Assembly (NCBI GenBank): GCA_020072565.1
Contig: JAIQGI010000020.1
Location: 124,001-188,000, forward strand
Origin: Terriglobia bacterium
GTDB taxonomy: Bacteria > Acidobacteriota > UBA6911
Length of the DNA: 64,000 nt
Direction: 5' to 3'
The notes beneath the pieces are model-generated. The model did not search any database and was not told the DNA's origin. It saw nothing but the letters and a program-made list of their open reading frames with translations. Of this stretch, positions 49,467-57,783 are shown in pieces (the stretch's first letter is position 1; each line of letters begins with the position of its first letter). Position numbers and translations under genes: made by a program.

Positions 49467-49799
49467 CGACTGTTTCCAAGATGCTGCCAAGAAGCAAAAG
49501 CCTGACGCCAAGAGTAGCAGATGTTCTTATCCAGAAATATCAGAGCTCGTGCACACAGCTGGGAAAGGAGGTGTCGACAATTAACGTAGATTTTTTAAGC
49601 AGTTTATGATGAATATTTATACACAGTAACAAAGGCCAAGGTTTCAATCACTTACAGTAAATCATCCGCAATATCGCCAAGATTCGTTGATTTTATCAAC
49701 ACTCTATCTTTCTGAATATTTCCGGGATCTCATCAGGTCATAACCATAAGCGATTGTATTTAAATACTTTCACGTTTTATCTCGCCATCTGATGCTTTG
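49467..49799. other. AT-rich intergenic region before the redox operon
   Basis: No gene is seen. From about 49580 to 49790 the sequence is clearly more AT-rich than its surroundings (runs such as ATGAATATTTATACAC and GTATTTAAATAC). This is a likely site for IHF-type bending or regulator binding upstream of the sigma-54-like promoter. GTATTTAAATAC (49757-49768) is a perfect 12-base palindrome. Confidence 0.6.
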
Positions 49800-49815
49800 T
49801 GGCACGGATCTTTCT
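49800..49815 (+). promoter_or_regulatory. Sigma-54-like promoter of the redox operon
   Basis: TGGCACGGATCTTTCT matches the sigma-54 consensus at every conserved position except T for G in the -12 GC. The start point would be near 49826, 33 bases before the first ATG. The NtrC-type regulator encoded at the end of the same cluster is the expected activator. Confidence 0.55.
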
Positions 49816-49858: not shown

Positions 49859-50545
49859 ATGGTAGCCATCCTGGCACTCTTGGCACTCGGGATCATGCTT
49901 CTGATCGAAATCTGGCGACAACGGCGCCGGGAGCGACGGGAGCCTGGCCTCGCATTGGAGCCGGCGAAGGTAGGGTTGCCTGAGGGGAGCATCGAGCGTT
50001 ACCTGCATCCCGGACATGGCTGGGTGCTGGTCCACAAGCCCCGTCTGGCGAGCGTGGGAGTGGATGATTTTGCGGCGCGCTTCGTCGGCAGGCTCGAGGC
50101 GGTCGAGGTGAGGAAGCCCGGCACCCTGGTACTGCAGGGAGAGCCGCTGGTAACGCTGAGGCGCGGAAGAAGATCGCTCACCCTGATGTCGCCGCTTTCC
50201 GGAATTCTCATGGATGTCAACACCCGACTGTCGTCGCAGCCGTCACTCGTGAACGATTCTCCTTACGACCAAGGCTGGATTGCCAGGGTGTCTCCTGCCA
50301 GGCTCGATATAGATTTGATGAACCTGTTGAAAGGCCCGGCGGTTCAGAGATGGAGGGAGAGCATCCAGGAGCGGTTGTCGAGCTGGTTCGCCCCAAGGCT
50401 CGGGATCGTGTTGCAGGACGGCGGCCAATGGTCTGAAAACATGGGCGAGCTGCTCAATGACGAAGACTGGGAAGAGCTGGTGAAGATGTTGTTTCCTCTT
50501 CACCCTTCATCCAAATCATCCAATCCCAAACCGGTGACGGAGTGA
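49859..50545 (+). CDS. Membrane-anchored GcvH-like protein 1 (no lipoyl-lysine)
   Basis: 228 residues. The ATG at 49859 has GGAGAA upstream and lies downstream of the predicted transcription start. The first ~17 residues form one membrane helix followed by a run of Arg (RQRRRERRE), which by the positive-inside rule places the body in the cytoplasm. Residues ~40-135 are a glycine-cleavage H-protein-like domain (HGWVLVHKPRLASVGVDDFA ... LMSPLSGILMDVN). At the usual lipoylation position, eight residues before the Pro of SPLSG, there is Arg instead of Lys. The C-terminal ~90 residues are of unknown fold. First gene of the operon. Confidence 0.82.
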   Translation: MVAILALLALGIMLLIEIWRQRRRERREPGLALEPAKVGLPEGSIERYLHPGHGWVLVHKPRLASVGVDDFAARFVGRLEAVEVRKPGTLVLQGEPLVTLRRGRRSLTLMSPLSGILMDVNTRLSSQPSLVNDSPYDQGWIARVSPARLDIDLMNLLKGPAVQRWRESIQERLSSWFAPRLGIVLQDGGQWSENMGELLNDEDWEELVKMLFPLHPSSKSSNPKPVTE

Positions 50546-50549
50546 AATC

Positions 50550-51221
50550 ATGACACCATTATTTGTAGTCGGAACCATCATCGCATTTCTAATCGTCGAC
50601 TGGATCGTTCAAGCGCGCAAGGCGACGAAGCAGGCCTTGGCGGCCGCGCCCGTCCGGTCTCTCCAGTCGCAAACTTTCTCGCTGCGCACGCCGGAGGGGA
50701 TCTTCTTCGCCAAATCCCATACCTGGCTCAGCCTTTTCCCTTCGGGCAAGGTGCGATTGGGGATCGACGACTTCGTGGCCAACCTCCTGGAGAGGGCTGA
50801 GGTCACGCTGGTAAAGAACCAGGGAGATCACGTGCAGAAAGGGGAGCCGCTGCTGGTGCTTGCAGAAAACGGGCAGGCGCTGACCGTGCGCGCCCCGATC
50901 AGCGGAGATGTCGTCGCGGTGAATGAAAAACTGGAAGAGACGCCCGGCCTAAAGCATGCGGATCTGTTCGGCGAGGGGTGGGCCTACACGATGCAGCCGA
51001 GCCGGCCTGAGGAGCTCCGCGGACTTCTGCTCGGCAACGAGAGCCGGTCCTGGATGTCCGAGGAATTGCGCCGCTTGCGTGATTTCTTCGCAGGCGCGAT
51101 CGCGAACGGCGTGCCGGCGCCGGCCTTGCAGGACGGGGGTGCGCCGGCTCCTGGTGCGTTGTTGCACCTGGGTCCCGATGTCTGGAAGCGGTTTGAGCAG
51201 CAGTTCCTGCAGGCTGAGTGA
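50550..51221 (+). CDS. Membrane-anchored GcvH-like protein 2 (no lipoyl-lysine)
   Basis: 223 residues, starting 4 bases after the previous gene with GGAG upstream of the ATG. An N-terminal helix (MTPLFVVGTIIAFLIVDWIV) followed by basic residues indicates a cytoplasmic body. The H-protein-like domain spans ~45-150 (KSHTWLSLFPSGKVRLGIDD ... VRAPISGDVVAVNEKL). The lipoyl-Lys site is Gly (ENGQALTVRAP). A C-terminal ~70-residue region resembles that of protein 1 in length and in the PALQDGG motif (IVLQDGG there), so the two are paralogues. Confidence 0.82.
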   Translation: MTPLFVVGTIIAFLIVDWIVQARKATKQALAAAPVRSLQSQTFSLRTPEGIFFAKSHTWLSLFPSGKVRLGIDDFVANLLERAEVTLVKNQGDHVQKGEPLLVLAENGQALTVRAPISGDVVAVNEKLEETPGLKHADLFGEGWAYTMQPSRPEELRGLLLGNESRSWMSEELRRLRDFFAGAIANGVPAPALQDGGAPAPGALLHLGPDVWKRFEQQFLQAE

Positions 51222-51259
51222 ATCCACAACAGCATGTTCAGAAGGAAGAGGATTAGATC

Positions 51260-52039
51260 ATGACCACGCGAAAAGCAATGCTCATCGACATAACCATGTG
51301 CGCCGGCTGCAACAGCTGCCAGGATGCCTGCAAGAAGGAGAACAACCTGGCCGGTGGCGCCGAGACCGGACTCTCGCCCACAGCCTACACGGCCCTGGAA
51401 GACCACAATGGCGTCAGCGTGCGCCGCATGTGCCAGCACTGCGTGGCGCCCACTTGCGCGTCTGTTTGTCCAGTGGGCGCATTTACCAAGACCGAAGAAG
51501 GCCCGGTAATTTACGACGAGACCAAGTGCATCGGTTGCCGGTACTGCATGCAGGCCTGCCCGTTCCAGGTTCCGCGCTATGAATGGAGCAGCAACAACCC
51601 GCGTGTACAGAAGTGCCGCTTCTGCTACGACCGGATCAAGAACGGCCGGCAGCCCGCCTGCGCCGAGGCCTGCCCCACCGGCGCGACCAAGTTCGGGAGC
51701 CGGGATGAAATGCTCCGGGAAGCGTTCGGCCGCATCCAGGCTGAGCCCGGCAAGTACGTGAACCGTATCTATGGGCAGAGCGAGGTCGGAGGCACTTCGA
51801 TTCTCTACATCACGAGTGTTCCTTTCGAAAAGCTCGGCTTCAAGACCCAACTGCGCAGGGAAGCCTTGCCGGAGCTGACCATGAATGCGTTGTCGAAGAT
51901 CCCGACCGTCGTGACTGTCGGGGGCGCATTCCTGGCCGGCGTCTACTGGATCACCAACCGCAGGGAGGAAGTAAGGCGGGCCGAAGGAACGAAAAACGGG
52001 CGCGCGCGCAACGCAGGGCCGCGGAAATTCAATTCATAA
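51260..52039 (+). CDS. 4Fe-4S ferredoxin subunit, HybA/NrfC-like, without Tat signal
   Basis: 259 residues. Sixteen cysteines form four [4Fe-4S] sites: CAGCNSCQDAC, CQHC...CASVCP, CIGCRYCMQACP and CRFC...CAEACP. This is the electron-transfer subunit that accompanies NrfD-type membrane proteins. Unlike HybA, it has no twin-arginine signal at its N-terminus (MTTRKAMLIDITMCAGC), so it should stay in the cytoplasm. A C-terminal hydrophobic helix (IPTVVTVGGAFLAGVYWI, ~213-230) with a basic tail may anchor it. GGAAGAGGA precedes the ATG. Confidence 0.9.
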   Translation: MTTRKAMLIDITMCAGCNSCQDACKKENNLAGGAETGLSPTAYTALEDHNGVSVRRMCQHCVAPTCASVCPVGAFTKTEEGPVIYDETKCIGCRYCMQACPFQVPRYEWSSNNPRVQKCRFCYDRIKNGRQPACAEACPTGATKFGSRDEMLREAFGRIQAEPGKYVNRIYGQSEVGGTSILYITSVPFEKLGFKTQLRREALPELTMNALSKIPTVVTVGGAFLAGVYWITNRREEVRRAEGTKNGRARNAGPRKFNS

Positions 52040-52060
52040 TCGATGGCACAGGAACGAATC

Positions 52061-53242
52061 ATGAAAAACTACATTGGCAAACTCACTTTCTGGAAATGCC
52101 TGGCGGGGATTATCCTGGCTGCCGGCGCGTACGCCACCTTTGTGCGGTTTACTTCGGGCCTCGGCAGGTCGACGAATCTGAACGACATGTATCCCTGGGG
52201 TCTCTGGATTGGGTTCGACGTCATGTGCGGCGTCGGCCTGGCCGCGGGAGGCTTCACTATCGCCGCGCTCGTGCACATTTTCAATGTGAAGCGGTTTGAG
52301 CCGATCTTGAGGCCCACGATCCTGACCGCGTTCCTGGGCTACCTTCTGGTCATTGTCGGCTTGATGTTCGACCTCGGCCGACCCATGATGATCTGGCATG
52401 CCATCATCATGTGGAACCCCCATTCGGTCATGTTCGAAGTGGCCTGGTGCGTGATGCTGTACACGACCGTCCTGGCCCTGGAGTTCGCCCCGGTAGTGCT
52501 CGAGAAGTTCAAGATGTCGAAGACACTGCGCATCCTGAGGCGGGTATCGATCCCGATAGTGATCCTGGGCGTCCTGCTTTCTACCCTGCACCAGTCTTCG
52601 CTCGGCTCCCTCTTCCTGATCGTGCCGGACAAGCTGTATGGACTCTGGTACACCCCGTACCTGCCGATTTTCTTCTTTGTCTCGGCTCTGGCCGCCGGGT
52701 GTGCGATGGTGATTTTCGAGTCGACCCTGAGCGCGCGCGTCTTCCATCGAGGACTCGAGCTGAAAATCCTGGACGAGATCGGTAGAATCGCGGTCGTCCT
52801 CCTTGGGGTCTGTCTCGTCATGAGGGTCATGGACGGCTATTATCGCGACATCTCCACCCTCCTCTTTGTGCCGAGAATGGAGACCTATCTCTACTGGTTC
52901 GAGATGCTGGTCGGCGTGATCGCTCCCATCATCCTGCTGTCGCAAGCTAGAATCAGGAAGAGCAAGAATGGATTGTTTGTGTGCGCCGTGATGATCATTA
53001 TCGGATTCATCACCGACCGCCTGAATATCGCCCTTACCGGCATGCAGGCATCGGCCGGCATGTCCTATTTCCCGTCCTGGATGGAAACTTCCATCACGCT
53101 TGCTATTGTGACTTTCGGTTTCGTGGCCTTCTCTTTGGCGGCGAAGTATCTGCCGGTCTATGAGCAGGAGGAACATGCCGCGGCAGCGTCATTGCCGGAA
53201 GCCTGGGTTGAGGATCTTGCACTCATATCTGAGAAGCCCTGA
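52061..53242 (+). CDS. NrfD/HybB-type integral membrane quinone-interacting subunit
   Basis: 393 residues from the ATG at 52061 (AGGAA upstream; the ATG at 52043 lacks one). About ten membrane helices are visible. The family motifs resemble HybB: GLWIGFDVMCGVGLAAGGFT, DLGRPMMIWHAIIMWNPHS and LHQSSLGSLFLIVPDKLYGL. In respiratory complexes such proteins exchange electrons between a quinone pool and an iron-sulfur subunit, here the ferredoxin encoded just upstream. No catalytic partner is encoded in the operon. Confidence 0.9.
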   Translation: MKNYIGKLTFWKCLAGIILAAGAYATFVRFTSGLGRSTNLNDMYPWGLWIGFDVMCGVGLAAGGFTIAALVHIFNVKRFEPILRPTILTAFLGYLLVIVGLMFDLGRPMMIWHAIIMWNPHSVMFEVAWCVMLYTTVLALEFAPVVLEKFKMSKTLRILRRVSIPIVILGVLLSTLHQSSLGSLFLIVPDKLYGLWYTPYLPIFFFVSALAAGCAMVIFESTLSARVFHRGLELKILDEIGRIAVVLLGVCLVMRVMDGYYRDISTLLFVPRMETYLYWFEMLVGVIAPIILLSQARIRKSKNGLFVCAVMIIIGFITDRLNIALTGMQASAGMSYFPSWMETSITLAIVTFGFVAFSLAAKYLPVYEQEEHAAAASLPEAWVEDLALISEKP

Positions 53243-53250
53243 GGGGTCGA

Positions 53251-53293
53251 CAGTTCCCGCCCTCTGCCCTGCACGTCGGCGGAGTGCGAACTG
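53251..53293 (+). promoter_or_regulatory. Intercistronic hairpin in the redox operon
   Basis: CAGTTCCCGCCCTCTGCC (53251-53268) can pair imperfectly with GGCGGAGTGCGAACTG (53278-53293). It lies between the NrfD-like gene and the third GcvH-like gene and may tune their relative expression. Confidence 0.3.
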
Positions 53294-53325
53294 GAACAGG
53301 TTCCATTTACCAGACAGGTGGATTC

Positions 53326-54087
53326 ATGAACTCTTCTAAAAGGTGTCACCTCATCCCTCCGGATGAGCAGCGTTGCCTCTGGATGGCGGCTGGAGTCGTC
53401 TCCTATCAGCTCTGTGACCGGATGTTCGACTGCGATAACTGCCCGCTGAACCAGGCGATGCGCAGACGATTCCACGCGCCGACCACCGCCAGTGCGGAAG
53501 AAAGCAGCCAAACCGCTCCCGCGGGCTCACAGGAAATCCCGCCGGAGGGATTTCATTACAGCCGTAACCATTGGTGGGCCCGCAAGACCGGTCCTCGCCT
53601 GGTCCGCCTCGGCATCGAGGAGGGCCTCGCCCAGGCGCTCCTGGGAGTCAAAGGGGTCGTTTTCCCGTCGCTGGGACAGCACGTGCGTAAAGGACAGACC
53701 TGCGTCTGGGTGGTCATGGACGGGGGGACAGTTCCGCTCGAAGCTCCGCTGGACGGCATCATCCGCGCGGTGAATCACGAGGTGACGGCAAAACCCCACC
53801 TGCTCTGCCTGCAACCGTTCGAGGACGGCTGGCTCTGCGAGCTGGAGGCCGACAATACCGAGGCCGCGACCGTGGACCTGATGACCGTCGAAGAAGCACG
53901 GCCAAGATACACAGCCGATCACAACCGTTTCCTGGCCTCGCTGGCGGGTGCGCTGCGCGGCAAGCGCCCGTCCGTAGGCCTCACGCTTGCCGACGGTGGC
54001 GAGAAACTACAGAGCTTTGCCGACATGCTCGGCCCGACCCGCTACTTCGCCCTGGTGCGCCAGTCCTTCGGCTGGTCTCGGCGCTAG
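53326..54087 (+). CDS. Cys-rich GcvH-like protein 3 (no lipoyl-lysine)
   Basis: 253 residues from the ATG at 53326 (AGGTGG upstream). Unlike proteins 1 and 2 it has no membrane helix. The N-terminal ~50 residues contain CLWMAAGVVSYQLCDRMFDC and then DNCPLNQAM, five cysteines in all, suggesting a metal or iron-sulfur site. The H-protein-like domain spans ~85-175 (SRNHWWARKTGPRLVRLGIE ... LEAPLDGIIRAVNHEV). The lipoyl-Lys position is Gly (MDGGTVPLEAP). The tail contains LTLADGGEKL, matching the LQDGG element of its paralogues. Probably a soluble partner of the membrane module. Confidence 0.82.
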   Translation: MNSSKRCHLIPPDEQRCLWMAAGVVSYQLCDRMFDCDNCPLNQAMRRRFHAPTTASAEESSQTAPAGSQEIPPEGFHYSRNHWWARKTGPRLVRLGIEEGLAQALLGVKGVVFPSLGQHVRKGQTCVWVVMDGGTVPLEAPLDGIIRAVNHEVTAKPHLLCLQPFEDGWLCELEADNTEAATVDLMTVEEARPRYTADHNRFLASLAGALRGKRPSVGLTLADGGEKLQSFADMLGPTRYFALVRQSFGWSRR

Positions 54088-54246
54088 CCTGCTCACCCAG
54101 CTTATGTTACCGAGGGCGCAAGGTCGCAGGAAAATAGTGATGATTTTCTCTGCAACTATCGACTGCTTGTTCTGATATTTTTTTCTGCACTTTTTCCGCG
54201 CAGTGCTTCAAATTCCAAATGCATTCGTGATAGGATTCGTTTACCT

Positions 54247-55863
54247 ATGCGATATTTTCATACGTTAACCTTCCGCGTGTTGGTCGGTTCCTGCCTCTTG
54301 CTGATTGCTCTCTTTGGCCTCTATACCAACTTCGCCGTGAGCTTCCATAACCAGCAGATGATGGATCAGGTACGCGACAACGCCAACAGCCTGAGCGACA
54401 TCATCAAGAACGCCACTCATTACAGCATGCTGAAAGACCGCCCCCAAGATGTTAAGGAAACCATTTACAGCATCGGCCGCGAAGGGGTTGAGATCCGGAT
54501 TTACAACAAGCGTGGCCAGATCATGGTTTCGACCGACAGAGCCCTGGAAGGCAGCTATGTGGAGCAAAGCGCCGAGGCGTGCAATGTCTGCCATGACAGC
54601 ACCAAGCCCCTGGCCCAACCCCTGCAATCGGTCCCGGCGGGATTGAACTTCCGGGGGCCTTACATCGGGCCCAAAGGGAATCACCTGGTCGGCCTCATCA
54701 ATCCCATCCGCAACGAACAGGCCTGCTACGGGTGCCACACCCCGGATCAGACGGTGCTGGGAGTGCTTGACGTGCGCCTGTCACTCGACAAGGTCGCTGA
54801 CAACATCGCGGAGGCGCGACGAAAGCTGATCCTGTACGCCATCACCGGCACAGTAGTGGTGATGCTCAGCTCGGGCATTTTTCTGTCCGTCACCGTGCAC
54901 CGGCCGGTCCGCAGGCTGCGGGAAGGCACAAATCAGATCTCCGCGGGCCATCTGGACTTCCGGATTCCGCTCTCCTCGAGGGATGAAATCGGTGAGCTGG
55001 CGCGGGCGTTCAATGAGATGACTCAAAGCCTGCAGAAAGCCGAGCAGGAGAACAAGCTCTGGTCGCAGACCCTGGAGAAGCGCGTCGAAGAAAAGACCGC
55101 CGAACTGAAACACATTCACGAACAGATCCTTCAGATCGAAAAAATGGCTTCGCTCGGGAAGCTGTCGGCGACGGTGGCGCACGAGTTGAACAACCCGCTC
55201 GAGGGGATCCTGAATTATTCAAAGCTGATTTCGAAAAGGCTCAGGAAGATCGAGTCGACGCCGGCCACGCAGTCGACCTTGGAGGACCTGGAACTGATCA
55301 CAAGCGAGGTCCAGAGGTGCGGGAACATCGTGAAAAATCTGCTTCTGTTCTCCAAGCGTCAGGTCGGCGAGTTCGGCCTGGTTCCGGTAGCGGATCTCGT
55401 CGACAAAGCGGTGCGGCTGATGCAGCATCATTTCAAGATCTCCAATGTAAACTTTCAGGCCGAGATCGCCACTCCTGAGGCGACGCTGATGTGTGACGAA
55501 AACCAGATTCAGCAGGCTCTGATCGCACTCTTCGTCAACGCAGTGGAGGCCATGCCGCAAGGGGGCGATCTCAAGCTCACGGCCATGCGGGATGCTTCGG
55601 GCGGCATCCGCATGGACATTGCGGACACGGGGGCCGGCATCGCCGCCGAAGATCTGCCGCATCTGTTTGAGCCATTCTTCACCACCAAGAAAGAAGGAAA
55701 AGGGGTGGGCTTGGGCTTGTCGGTCGTCTACGGGATCCTTGAGCGCCACGACGGAACGGTCTCGGTCCGGTCCGAACCGGGCAAGGGAACGACGTTCACG
55801 CTGACGTTTCCCCCAGCGGAGAAGCATCATCCCAGAGTCGAGGCCAAAGGAGCAGTCACCTAA
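54247..55863 (+). CDS. Sensor histidine kinase with two c-type haem motifs
   Basis: 538 residues. Helix 1 (~10-28) and helix 2 (~195-217) enclose a periplasmic domain with two haem-attachment motifs, CNVCH (112-116) and CYGCH (160-164). This makes it a likely haem-based redox or gas sensor. A HAMP domain (RPVRRLREGTNQIS...) is followed by a coiled coil, HisKA with His 312 in TVAHELNNPL, and an ATPase domain (DTGAGI, GVGLGLSVVYGI). It is followed after 24 bases by its NtrC-type regulator. Cytochrome c maturation proteins must exist elsewhere in the genome. Confidence 0.9.
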   Translation: MRYFHTLTFRVLVGSCLLLIALFGLYTNFAVSFHNQQMMDQVRDNANSLSDIIKNATHYSMLKDRPQDVKETIYSIGREGVEIRIYNKRGQIMVSTDRALEGSYVEQSAEACNVCHDSTKPLAQPLQSVPAGLNFRGPYIGPKGNHLVGLINPIRNEQACYGCHTPDQTVLGVLDVRLSLDKVADNIAEARRKLILYAITGTVVVMLSSGIFLSVTVHRPVRRLREGTNQISAGHLDFRIPLSSRDEIGELARAFNEMTQSLQKAEQENKLWSQTLEKRVEEKTAELKHIHEQILQIEKMASLGKLSATVAHELNNPLEGILNYSKLISKRLRKIESTPATQSTLEDLELITSEVQRCGNIVKNLLLFSKRQVGEFGLVPVADLVDKAVRLMQHHFKISNVNFQAEIATPEATLMCDENQIQQALIALFVNAVEAMPQGGDLKLTAMRDASGGIRMDIADTGAGIAAEDLPHLFEPFFTTKKEGKGVGLGLSVVYGILERHDGTVSVRSEPGKGTTFTLTFPPAEKHHPRVEAKGAVT

Positions 55864-55887
55864 CTCATCGCCGGGTGCAGGGGTTTT

Positions 55888-57231
55888 ATGAGCAATCGGA
55901 CATCCATACTCATTGTCGATGATGAAAAAATCGTGCGGGAATCACTCACCAAGTGGTTTCTCGAGGACGGGTTCACCGTCGGTGCCGCCGAAGACGCTAC
56001 GGCGGCAATCCGCCAGCTGCAGGCCCAGCGCTGGGACATCATCCTGCTCGACATCAAGATGCCGGGCATGGACGGCATGGAACTCCAGGGGCGGATCAAA
56101 GAGATCGATCCGCTGGCCTCGATCATCTTCATCACAGCACATGCCTCGGTCGACACCGCAGTCCAGGCTCTCAAGGCCGGAGCCTTCGATTACGTGACCA
56201 AGCCGGTTGATCCCGATTATCTGTCTCACCTGATCCGCAACGCGATCAAGCAGCGGGCGCTCGTGCAGGAAAACATCAAACTCAAGGAGCAGATCGCGGA
56301 GTTTCCCAAGCTCGACGAGATCATCGGCGAATCGCCGGCGATGCAACAGGTGTTCGAGATGATCGAGACCGTTGCCAAGACGGACACAACGGTCATGATC
56401 CGGGGTGAGAGCGGCACCGGCAAGGAATTGATCGCACGCGCCATTCACAGCAACGGCGAGCGTCGTTATTTTCCGATCGTAACCATCAATTGCGGCGCCA
56501 TGCCAGAAGGGGTGCTCGAAAGCGAACTCTTCGGTCACGAGCGGGGAGCCTTCACCGGCGCGCAATACCGGCGCAAGGGCAAAATCGAGCTCGCCGACCA
56601 GGGAACCCTGTTTCTCGACGAGATCGGCAACGTGGGCATGAAAACCCAGATGGATCTGTTGAGAGTGCTGGAGACCAAACAGTTCGCGCGCGTCGGCGGC
56701 AATGAAATCATCAAAGTCGATTTCCGGATCATCTGCGCCACCAACAAGGATCTCGAGAAAGCAGTCCAGGAGAACACCTTCCGGGAAGACCTCTATTACC
56801 GCTTGAATGTCTTCAGCATCTTCGTGCCCCCCCTGAGGGAGCGCAAATCGGACATTCCCCTGCTTGTGAACTATTTTGCGCAGAAATATGCGCACGCCAT
56901 GGCCAAGCCGATTGCATCCGTCTCTCCCGAAGCGATGGATGTGCTGGTGCGTTACAACTGGCCGGGGAACGTGCGCGAGCTCGAAAACGCGATCGAACGA
57001 GCCATGGTGGTCGGGAAGCCGCCCGCGATTCTCCCCGAGGATCTGCCCTTCCGCCTGTCTGATAAAAACAACATGCCGCACAACGGATCCCTCGCAGCGA
57101 TCGAAAAAACGCACATCGCCCACGTGCTCGAACAGAACAACTGGAATATCTCGCGGTCGGCCGAAATCCTTGAAATCGACCGGGTGACGCTATACAACAA
57201 GATTCACAAGTACGGCTTGAGGAAACCGTAG
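55888..57231 (+). CDS. Sigma-54-dependent response regulator (NtrC family)
   Basis: 447 residues. Receiver domain 1-120 with phospho-acceptor Asp 55 (LLDIKMPG). AAA+ domain ~140-375 with RGESGTGKELIARAI, intact GAFTGA, LFLDEIGNV and NWPGNVRELENAIERAM. A Fis-type helix-turn-helix ends the protein (SAEILEIDRVTLYNKI). AGGGG precedes the ATG. It is paired with the dihaem sensor kinase, and together they probably switch on the sigma-54-like promoter at 49.8 kb in response to redox state. The archaemetzincin GTG follows its TAG directly. Confidence 0.94.
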   Translation: MSNRTSILIVDDEKIVRESLTKWFLEDGFTVGAAEDATAAIRQLQAQRWDIILLDIKMPGMDGMELQGRIKEIDPLASIIFITAHASVDTAVQALKAGAFDYVTKPVDPDYLSHLIRNAIKQRALVQENIKLKEQIAEFPKLDEIIGESPAMQQVFEMIETVAKTDTTVMIRGESGTGKELIARAIHSNGERRYFPIVTINCGAMPEGVLESELFGHERGAFTGAQYRRKGKIELADQGTLFLDEIGNVGMKTQMDLLRVLETKQFARVGGNEIIKVDFRIICATNKDLEKAVQENTFREDLYYRLNVFSIFVPPLRERKSDIPLLVNYFAQKYAHAMAKPIASVSPEAMDVLVRYNWPGNVRELENAIERAMVVGKPPAILPEDLPFRLSDKNNMPHNGSLAAIEKTHIAHVLEQNNWNISRSAEILEIDRVTLYNKIHKYGLRKP

Positions 57232-57783
57232 GTGTCTCACGAGATCCACATCCTCAACGGCTCCTCCCTGAAGCCCGGCGGTTTGATTGCTATCTCGCGT
57301 CGGCTGGAGGAGGTTTTTGCGGTCCCGGTGAGCTCGGAGCGAGCGGCGCTGGACCTCCGGACAGCCTACGACACTTCGCGGCGGCAAACCAACTCCACGC
57401 TGTTGCTCGCCCAGATCCTAGACGGAGCCCACAATCCGGGGAAAAAGCGCATCGGGATCGTGGACGTCGATCTTTTCATCCCGATTCTCACATTTGTCTT
57501 TGGGGAGGCACAGCTTGGGGGGCCCGCCGCCATTGTCTCAACCCACCGGCTGTCGAACCAGTTCTACGGCCTGGAGCGGGACGATGCGCTCATGCTGCAG
57601 CGGCTGGAAAAGGAGCTGGTGCACGAGCTCGGGCACACCTTCGGCCTATATCATTGCCGCCAGTTCGAATGCGTGATGCGGGCCTCGACCTACGTCGAGG
57701 AGATCGACTTGAAGCGCGTCCATCCCTGCAAAACCTGCGCCGCGGAATTGAGCCTGCAAAATCGAGTGGTGAGTCATGAGTGA
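57232..57783 (+). CDS. amzA: Archaemetzincin-like zinc metalloprotease
   Basis: 183 residues. The full archaemetzincin signature is present: HELGHTFGLYHC with catalytic Glu, then x4-C-x-M and a CKTC pair, giving a catalytic zinc and a structural second zinc. Archaemetzincins are mainly archaeal, with scattered bacterial members; substrates are little known. No signal peptide, so it is cytoplasmic. The GTG start is contiguous with the TAG of the response regulator, so it is translated with the two-component system. Its stop codon lies inside a long hairpin shared with the convergent nitrilase gene. Confidence 0.9.
   Translation: MSHEIHILNGSSLKPGGLIAISRRLEEVFAVPVSSERAALDLRTAYDTSRRQTNSTLLLAQILDGAHNPGKKRIGIVDVDLFIPILTFVFGEAQLGGPAAIVSTHRLSNQFYGLERDDALMLQRLEKELVHELGHTFGLYHCRQFECVMRASTYVEEIDLKRVHPCKTCAAELSLQNRVVSHE

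Follow-up and report, generated by a model that had tools for sequence, protein, structure and literature searches.

Proteins with the fold of the H-protein, GcvH, are known outside glycine cleavage as LbpA and as the GcvH-like proteins of the sHdr and lipoate-scavenging systems (including GcvH-L, 5a35), and these act through a lipoyl-lysine (lipoyl-Lys). Here we describe three GcvH-like proteins, P0001, P0002 and P0003, encoded in one operon of a Terriglobia bacterium (Acidobacteriota, UBA6911) on a stretch of 64,000 nucleotides that was analysed as a whole and is called the window below (assembly GCA_020072565.1, contig JAIQGI010000020.1, positions 124,001 to 188,000, forward strand). With ordinary GcvH they share the fold throughout the 128-residue domain as well as the HxW and GW motifs and the Asn of the VN motif, but they lack the lipoyl-Lys, begin with a transmembrane segment or a Cys motif, carry presumed extra C-terminal helices with a DGG sequence, and have no gcvT or gcvP among the genes of their operon. 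LbpA and GcvH-L likewise have a GcvH fold outside glycine cleavage; however, the Lys is lost in the window proteins, at a position defined by GcvH and not by direct alignment with LbpA, and the neighbours of the window genes encode an NrfD/iron-sulfur (Fe-S) protein pair, a sensor kinase, a regulator and an archaemetzincin (Peptidase M54) instead of the sHdr complex. At the level of sequence, the GcvH fold is thus combined with loss of Lys, a DGG tail, an anchor (P0001, P0002) or Cys motif (P0003), a recurring operon and, in relatives, fusions to receiver domains. We give a probability of about one half to the reading that the GcvH fold serves here as a cofactor-free, cytoplasmic regulatory or docking module joining a membrane quinone/Fe-S complex to two-component signalling.

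All three proteins exceed the Pfam GCV_H cut-off of 22.2 bits (P0001 76.1, P0002 62.8 and P0003 53.7 bits) and match solved H-proteins at E values of about 1e-16 to 1e-14. Against the NCBIfam gcvH equivalog they score 57.3, 50.6 and 49.8 bits, below its cut-off of 115.85, and are therefore not members. The lipoyl region aligns without gaps to solved H-proteins, and the lipoyl-Lys corresponds to Arg104 in P0001, Gly108 in P0002 and Gly133 in P0003, in each case eight residues N-terminal to the Pro of the P-x-S/D-G turn; the 14 residues preceding this Pro contain no Lys in any of the three. An AlphaFold model of P0002, based on a 63-sequence alignment, displays the full H-protein fold with a predicted local distance difference test (pLDDT) score of 89.7 and superimposes on the E. 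coli H-protein 3a8k_E with a Z score of 17.6 and a root-mean-square deviation of 1.4 Å over 125 residues, and residue 108 forms the tip of the E100-106/E109-114 hairpin. The P0003 model likewise has the H-protein fold (Foldseek TMt about 0.9). A preliminary description, which proposed a comparison of predicted structures, had placed Arg, Gly and Gly at the lipoyl position, and the alignment, the codons and the closeness of the P0002 model to the E. coli protein all agree with it. The L-Q/A-DGG motif that it had noticed in the C-terminal tails is indeed common to all three proteins, with DGG codons beginning at 50417, 51132 and 53992.

The loss of Lys extends across a family of 140 domains, which comprises the three window domains and those of related loci, hereafter cassettes. 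In the lipoyl column we counted Gly 67 times, Asp 15, Ala 13, Asn 11, Glu 11, Ser 8, Lys 4 and Arg 3 times, and ordinary H-proteins in the same alignments carry Lys; a conserved Lys, which would have contradicted the preliminary description, therefore does not emerge in these homologues. The C-terminal DGG is retained in about 86–89% of them. Since the host genome encodes LipA, LipB and an ordinary GcvH with its lipoyl Lys (ESVKAVS), a general absence of lipoylation in the host is ruled out, and judging from these alignments the loss is a trait specific to this GcvH-like family and not chance. A tree of 58 domains places all Lys-bearing proteins on one side of a branch (89/81), apart from those without Lys, and assigns P0001, P0002 and P0003 to three separate old subfamilies, each with counterparts in cassettes of Ignavibacteriota, Bacteroidota or Chlorobiota. 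This topology rules out a recent tandem duplication as the origin of the three window genes. The host genome also encodes a second Lys-bearing GcvH-like protein (G000 contig C105:6642-6995, in L002 and L077; an open frame of 195 amino acids with ETVKVN). The retention of DGG together with the loss of Lys, across many phyla and in a conserved operon, supports two earlier suggestions, namely that the domains were re-used for another purpose and that the shared tail reflects a common new function.

Links between the GcvH-like domain and two-component signalling were found in relatives of the window operon. Specifically, a membrane anchor, a receiver and a GcvH-like domain are fused in L071:6260-7378, L080:5858-6979, L081:1880-3091, L123:7935-9098 and L126:16553-17701; the fused receivers have intact acceptor motifs and score 95–104 bits for Response_reg in addition to their GCV_H match, and one such fusion belongs to the genus of the window. 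Pfam searches detected no receiver domain in P0001, P0002 or P0003. Next to the kinase of the L071 and L080 cassettes, no receiver other than the fused one was found, and the GcvH-like domain therefore probably acts as the output of this kinase. Three further loci (L056, L057 and L058), in which NrfD was not found, have a GcvH-like gene adjoining those for a kinase and a regulator. A heme-c motif, CxxCH, lies in the periplasmic part of 63 of the 73 kinases linked to NrfD. The window kinase carries two such motifs, and its motif-bearing relatives have one. At 17 of 75 loci, the first cassette gene is preceded by a sigma54 site of the -24/-12 type scoring 9–10 of 10, compared with 2.5% of random control segments of the same loci, an enrichment that is indicative only because the controls include non-intergenic DNA and the loci are partly related. 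The corresponding site in the window, TGGCACGGATCTTTCTT, lies at a distance similar to that of the better sites of related cassettes.

The window operon (Table 1) spans 49859-57783 in the order GcvH-like, GcvH-like, Fe-S, NrfD, GcvH-like, sensor kinase, NtrC-type regulator and archaemetzincin, and its last three genes lie beyond position 54087, where the interval of the preliminary description ended. The NrfD protein scores 84.4 bits for its family PF03916 (gathering score 25.8), and together with the Fe-S protein it is homologous to the pairs HmcB/HmcC and HybA/HybB. However, the two score only 253.8 of 420 and 317.7 of 550 bits for the NCBIfam HmcB and HmcC equivalogs and are not members; in further contrast to those systems, the operon contains no hydrogenase or multiheme cytochrome and no catalytic subunit, its Fe-S protein has no twin-arginine signal, and GcvH-like proteins are added. 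With NtrC-family two-component systems that contain heme-c kinases (cf. Pfam Mcp40H-20_sensor), the window pair shares the periplasmic CxxCH sensor, HisKA/HATPase and the sigma54 activator, but in the window these parts are associated with an Fe-S/NrfD membrane complex, with GcvH-like domains and with an archaemetzincin. The last carries the full zinc motif of archaemetzincins (AMZ, M54), HExxHxxGx3Cx4CxM...CxxC; known members are proteases, whereas the predicted window M54 is the last gene of a redox-signalling operon.

Table 1 Features of the operon, all coordinates referring to the window
Feature	Position	Strand	Description
Candidate sigma54 promoter	49799..49815	+	TGGCACGGATCTTTCTT; perfect -24 element, one mismatch in -12 element; 60 bases upstream of first gene
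P0001	49859..50545	+	Class A protein of 228 aa; N-terminal transmembrane anchor followed by GcvH-fold domain and LQDGG tail; lipoyl position occupied by Arg104 (codon 50168-50170)
P0002	50550..51221	+	Class A protein of 223 aa; N-terminal transmembrane anchor followed by GcvH-fold domain and LQDGG tail; lipoyl position occupied by Gly108 (codon 50871-50873)
Fe-S protein, HmcB/HybA-like	51260..52039	+	Four 4Fe-4S-type motifs with sixteen Cys in all; hydrophobic segment at C-terminus; no twin-arginine signal
NrfD/HybB/HmcC-like integral membrane protein	52043..53242	+	Presumed quinone site
P0003	53326..54087	+	253 aa, class B: soluble, N-terminal Cys motif CxWMxAG...YxLC...C..CP (C17, C30, C36, C39), GcvH-fold domain, LADGG tail; Gly133 at lipoyl position (codon 53722-53724)
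Sensor histidine kinase	54247..55863	+	Periplasmic heme-c type sensor (CNVCH residue 112, CYGCH residue 160), HAMP, HisKA, HATPase
NtrC/AtoC-type sigma54-dependent response regulator	55888..57231	+	Family-profile matches
Archaemetzincin (Peptidase M54)	57232..57783	+	Complete zinc motif HELGHTFGLYHCRQFECVM...CKTC; no other M54 gene found in genome

We traced the cassette through 80 loci obtained from a scan of named genomes with an NrfD alignment. A GcvH-like gene lies near the Fe-S and NrfD genes in 66 of them, mostly in the same order, and these span Ignavibacteriota, Bacteroidota, Acidobacteriota, KSB1, Zixibacteria, Calditrichota, NC10/Methylomirabilota, Gemmatimonadota and others; most of the NrfD-selected loci include the kinase and the regulator. 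Class A proteins, with an N-terminal transmembrane anchor, account for 103 of the 140 domains by hydropathy. Class B proteins, with the motif CxWMxAG...YxLC.....C..CPxD, number 24 by strict pattern, all with DGG. We found this Cys motif at one place in the host genome and in 11 of the 297 phylum genomes, and its rarity rules it out as a general metal-binding module. It stands twice in tandem at L058:5883-7025 and at G139 contig C15:146-448, the latter adjoining an M54 gene. In another genome of the same genus (G004, L064:5352-7632), all that is left at the corresponding site is the P0003 orthologue, the regulator and an apparent short 3' kinase remnant, and no class A GcvH, Fe-S or NrfD genes were found there. 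The operon is recurrent across many bacterial phyla and apparently undescribed: in the open-access library searched we found no paper that connects archaemetzincins with an operon of this kind, or GcvH-like proteins with receiver domains, NrfD or HmcBC. All of its parts belong to known families, and what appears new relative to that literature is their combination and the joining of the GcvH fold to receiver domains.

Many physiological roles of archaemetzincins remain unknown (PMC4681839). The window protein scores 82.3 bits for M54 in Pfam (cut-off 24.4) with a complete zinc motif, and across cassettes an M54 gene directly follows the regulator in 55 of the 76 cases where the sequence allows this to be seen. 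In the 297 genomes of the phylum, M54 is present in 39 of the 44 that carry a cassette GcvH outside family f31 and in 41 of the 253 others (Fisher p 5e-21, from 18 families with kinship uncorrected). Within f31 it is found in none of 17 genomes; the two f31 cassettes analysed with Pfam (L071 and L080) are of the receiver-fusion type, and a separate NtrC-type gene was not seen in three f31 loci. M54 thus appears to track the version of the cassette that has the NtrC regulator.

Genes for 2-oxoacid:ferredoxin oxidoreductase (KorA/KorB type) adjoin the cassette, upstream or downstream, in eight loci of several lineages (L066, L084, L087, L090, L100, L104, L151 and L152), and their position suggests a low-potential ferredoxin link. 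Fe-S proteins of close relatives have no twin-arginine signal. Unlike the window type, more distant cassettes (L054, L060, L063, L067, L069 and L081) encode an Fe-S protein with a twin-arginine signal, in some cases together with a small cytochrome c7.

These ferredoxin-related neighbours, the tight linkage of GcvH-like genes to the Fe-S and NrfD genes, and the Fe-S proteins of close relatives, which without a twin-arginine signal are compatible with a cytoplasmic partner, would all fit the main alternative, in which the GcvH-like proteins serve an Fe-S/NrfD quinone oxidoreductase (e.g., ferredoxin:menaquinone) as structural or assembly subunits outside signalling, and the kinase and regulator merely control the operon. 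We regard this as a serious possibility but not a probable one, as the receiver–GcvH fusions point to signalling, GcvH-like genes stand beside two-component genes where NrfD was not found, and the window operon has no catalytic subunit. The preliminary description had proposed re-use for a structural or metal-binding purpose; the structural part is compatible with these data, and a regulatory role fits the fusions and the two-component neighbours better. Metal binding by the GcvH domain itself receives no support, given that P0001 and P0002 contain no Cys at all, and only the N-terminal motif of P0003, with its four conserved Cys, is a plausible metal site. A different cofactor or metal is an improbable explanation, according to which P0003 would bind zinc or an Fe-S cluster through this motif, and all three proteins would have a ligand site made up of the DGG loop and the hairpin tip. 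It could account for the conservation of the Cys residues (among 25 class B proteins, C17, C30 and C39 never vary and C36 hardly does), for the retention of DGG across classes and for the tandem motifs of some relatives, but the only His conserved family-wide is that of the HxW motif, which ordinary GcvH also has, and the Cys region of P0003 is modelled at low confidence (pLDDT about 50–60).

Two further explanations are far less probable. Acylation might persist at a shifted Lys near the hairpin tip, since Lys occurs one or two columns past the canonical position in 17 and 21 of the 140 relatives, respectively. However, attachment to lipoyl domains requires the exact hairpin-tip position, the residue there varies among Gly, Asp, Glu, Ala and Asn, and the Lys-free segment before the turn rules out a shifted lipoyl Lys in the window proteins; we consider this explanation very unlikely. 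The notion that the genes are decaying, functionless pseudo-paralogues of GcvH, as the loss of most of the cassette at the same site in G004 might suggest, seems to us the least likely of all: the reading frames are intact, the family is deeply conserved across many phyla and keeps its DGG and its order of genes in the operon, and the window copies belong to three separate old subfamilies and are not recent duplicates.

Several observations also weigh against a regulatory or docking module between the membrane complex and signalling. In 14 of the 80 NrfD loci, some of them truncated, no GcvH-like gene was found nearby, so that the domain is not strictly required, and some class A genes are solitary (L045, L048 and L053). 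Evidence on whether the Fe-S protein faces the cytoplasm or the periplasm is conflicting: it has no twin-arginine signal, yet its C-terminal charges suggest the opposite topology. The -12 element in the window is imperfect and does not have its GC, for which reason the site is only a candidate. Furthermore, the loci were chosen by similarity to the window proteins, and the fractions given above are not population frequencies.

For a docking and regulatory role, we infer the electron flow, the binding partners and the part played by phosphorylation as follows. The NrfD and Fe-S proteins would connect the quinone pool with a soluble partner by electron transfer, while the sensor kinase would sense the redox state via its heme. 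The GcvH-like domains may dock the membrane complex to the signalling proteins, in a manner gated by phosphorylation where a receiver is fused, and the regulator would drive the operon from the sigma54 promoter. The archaemetzincin, from its predicted activity, could be a protease output of the same circuit. More tentatively, and with clearly less than an even chance of being correct, the whole may constitute a new signal-transduction system, in which a lipoyl-less GcvH fold, as an output or adaptor gated by phosphorylation, links the redox state of a quinone-linked NrfD/Fe-S complex and the heme kinase to sigma54 transcription and archaemetzincin proteolysis.

If true, such a coupling system would give bacterial archaemetzincins a functional context. 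These enzymes have no settled physiological role, and their role becomes testable through the place of the gene in an operon of heme sensor, NtrC-type regulator and NrfD. The receiver–GcvH fusions provide a concrete hypothesis, that of GcvH as an output domain of signalling. More generally, the cassettes would represent a broad re-use of a cofactor-carrier fold after the loss of its cofactor, within an operon of recognisable parts.

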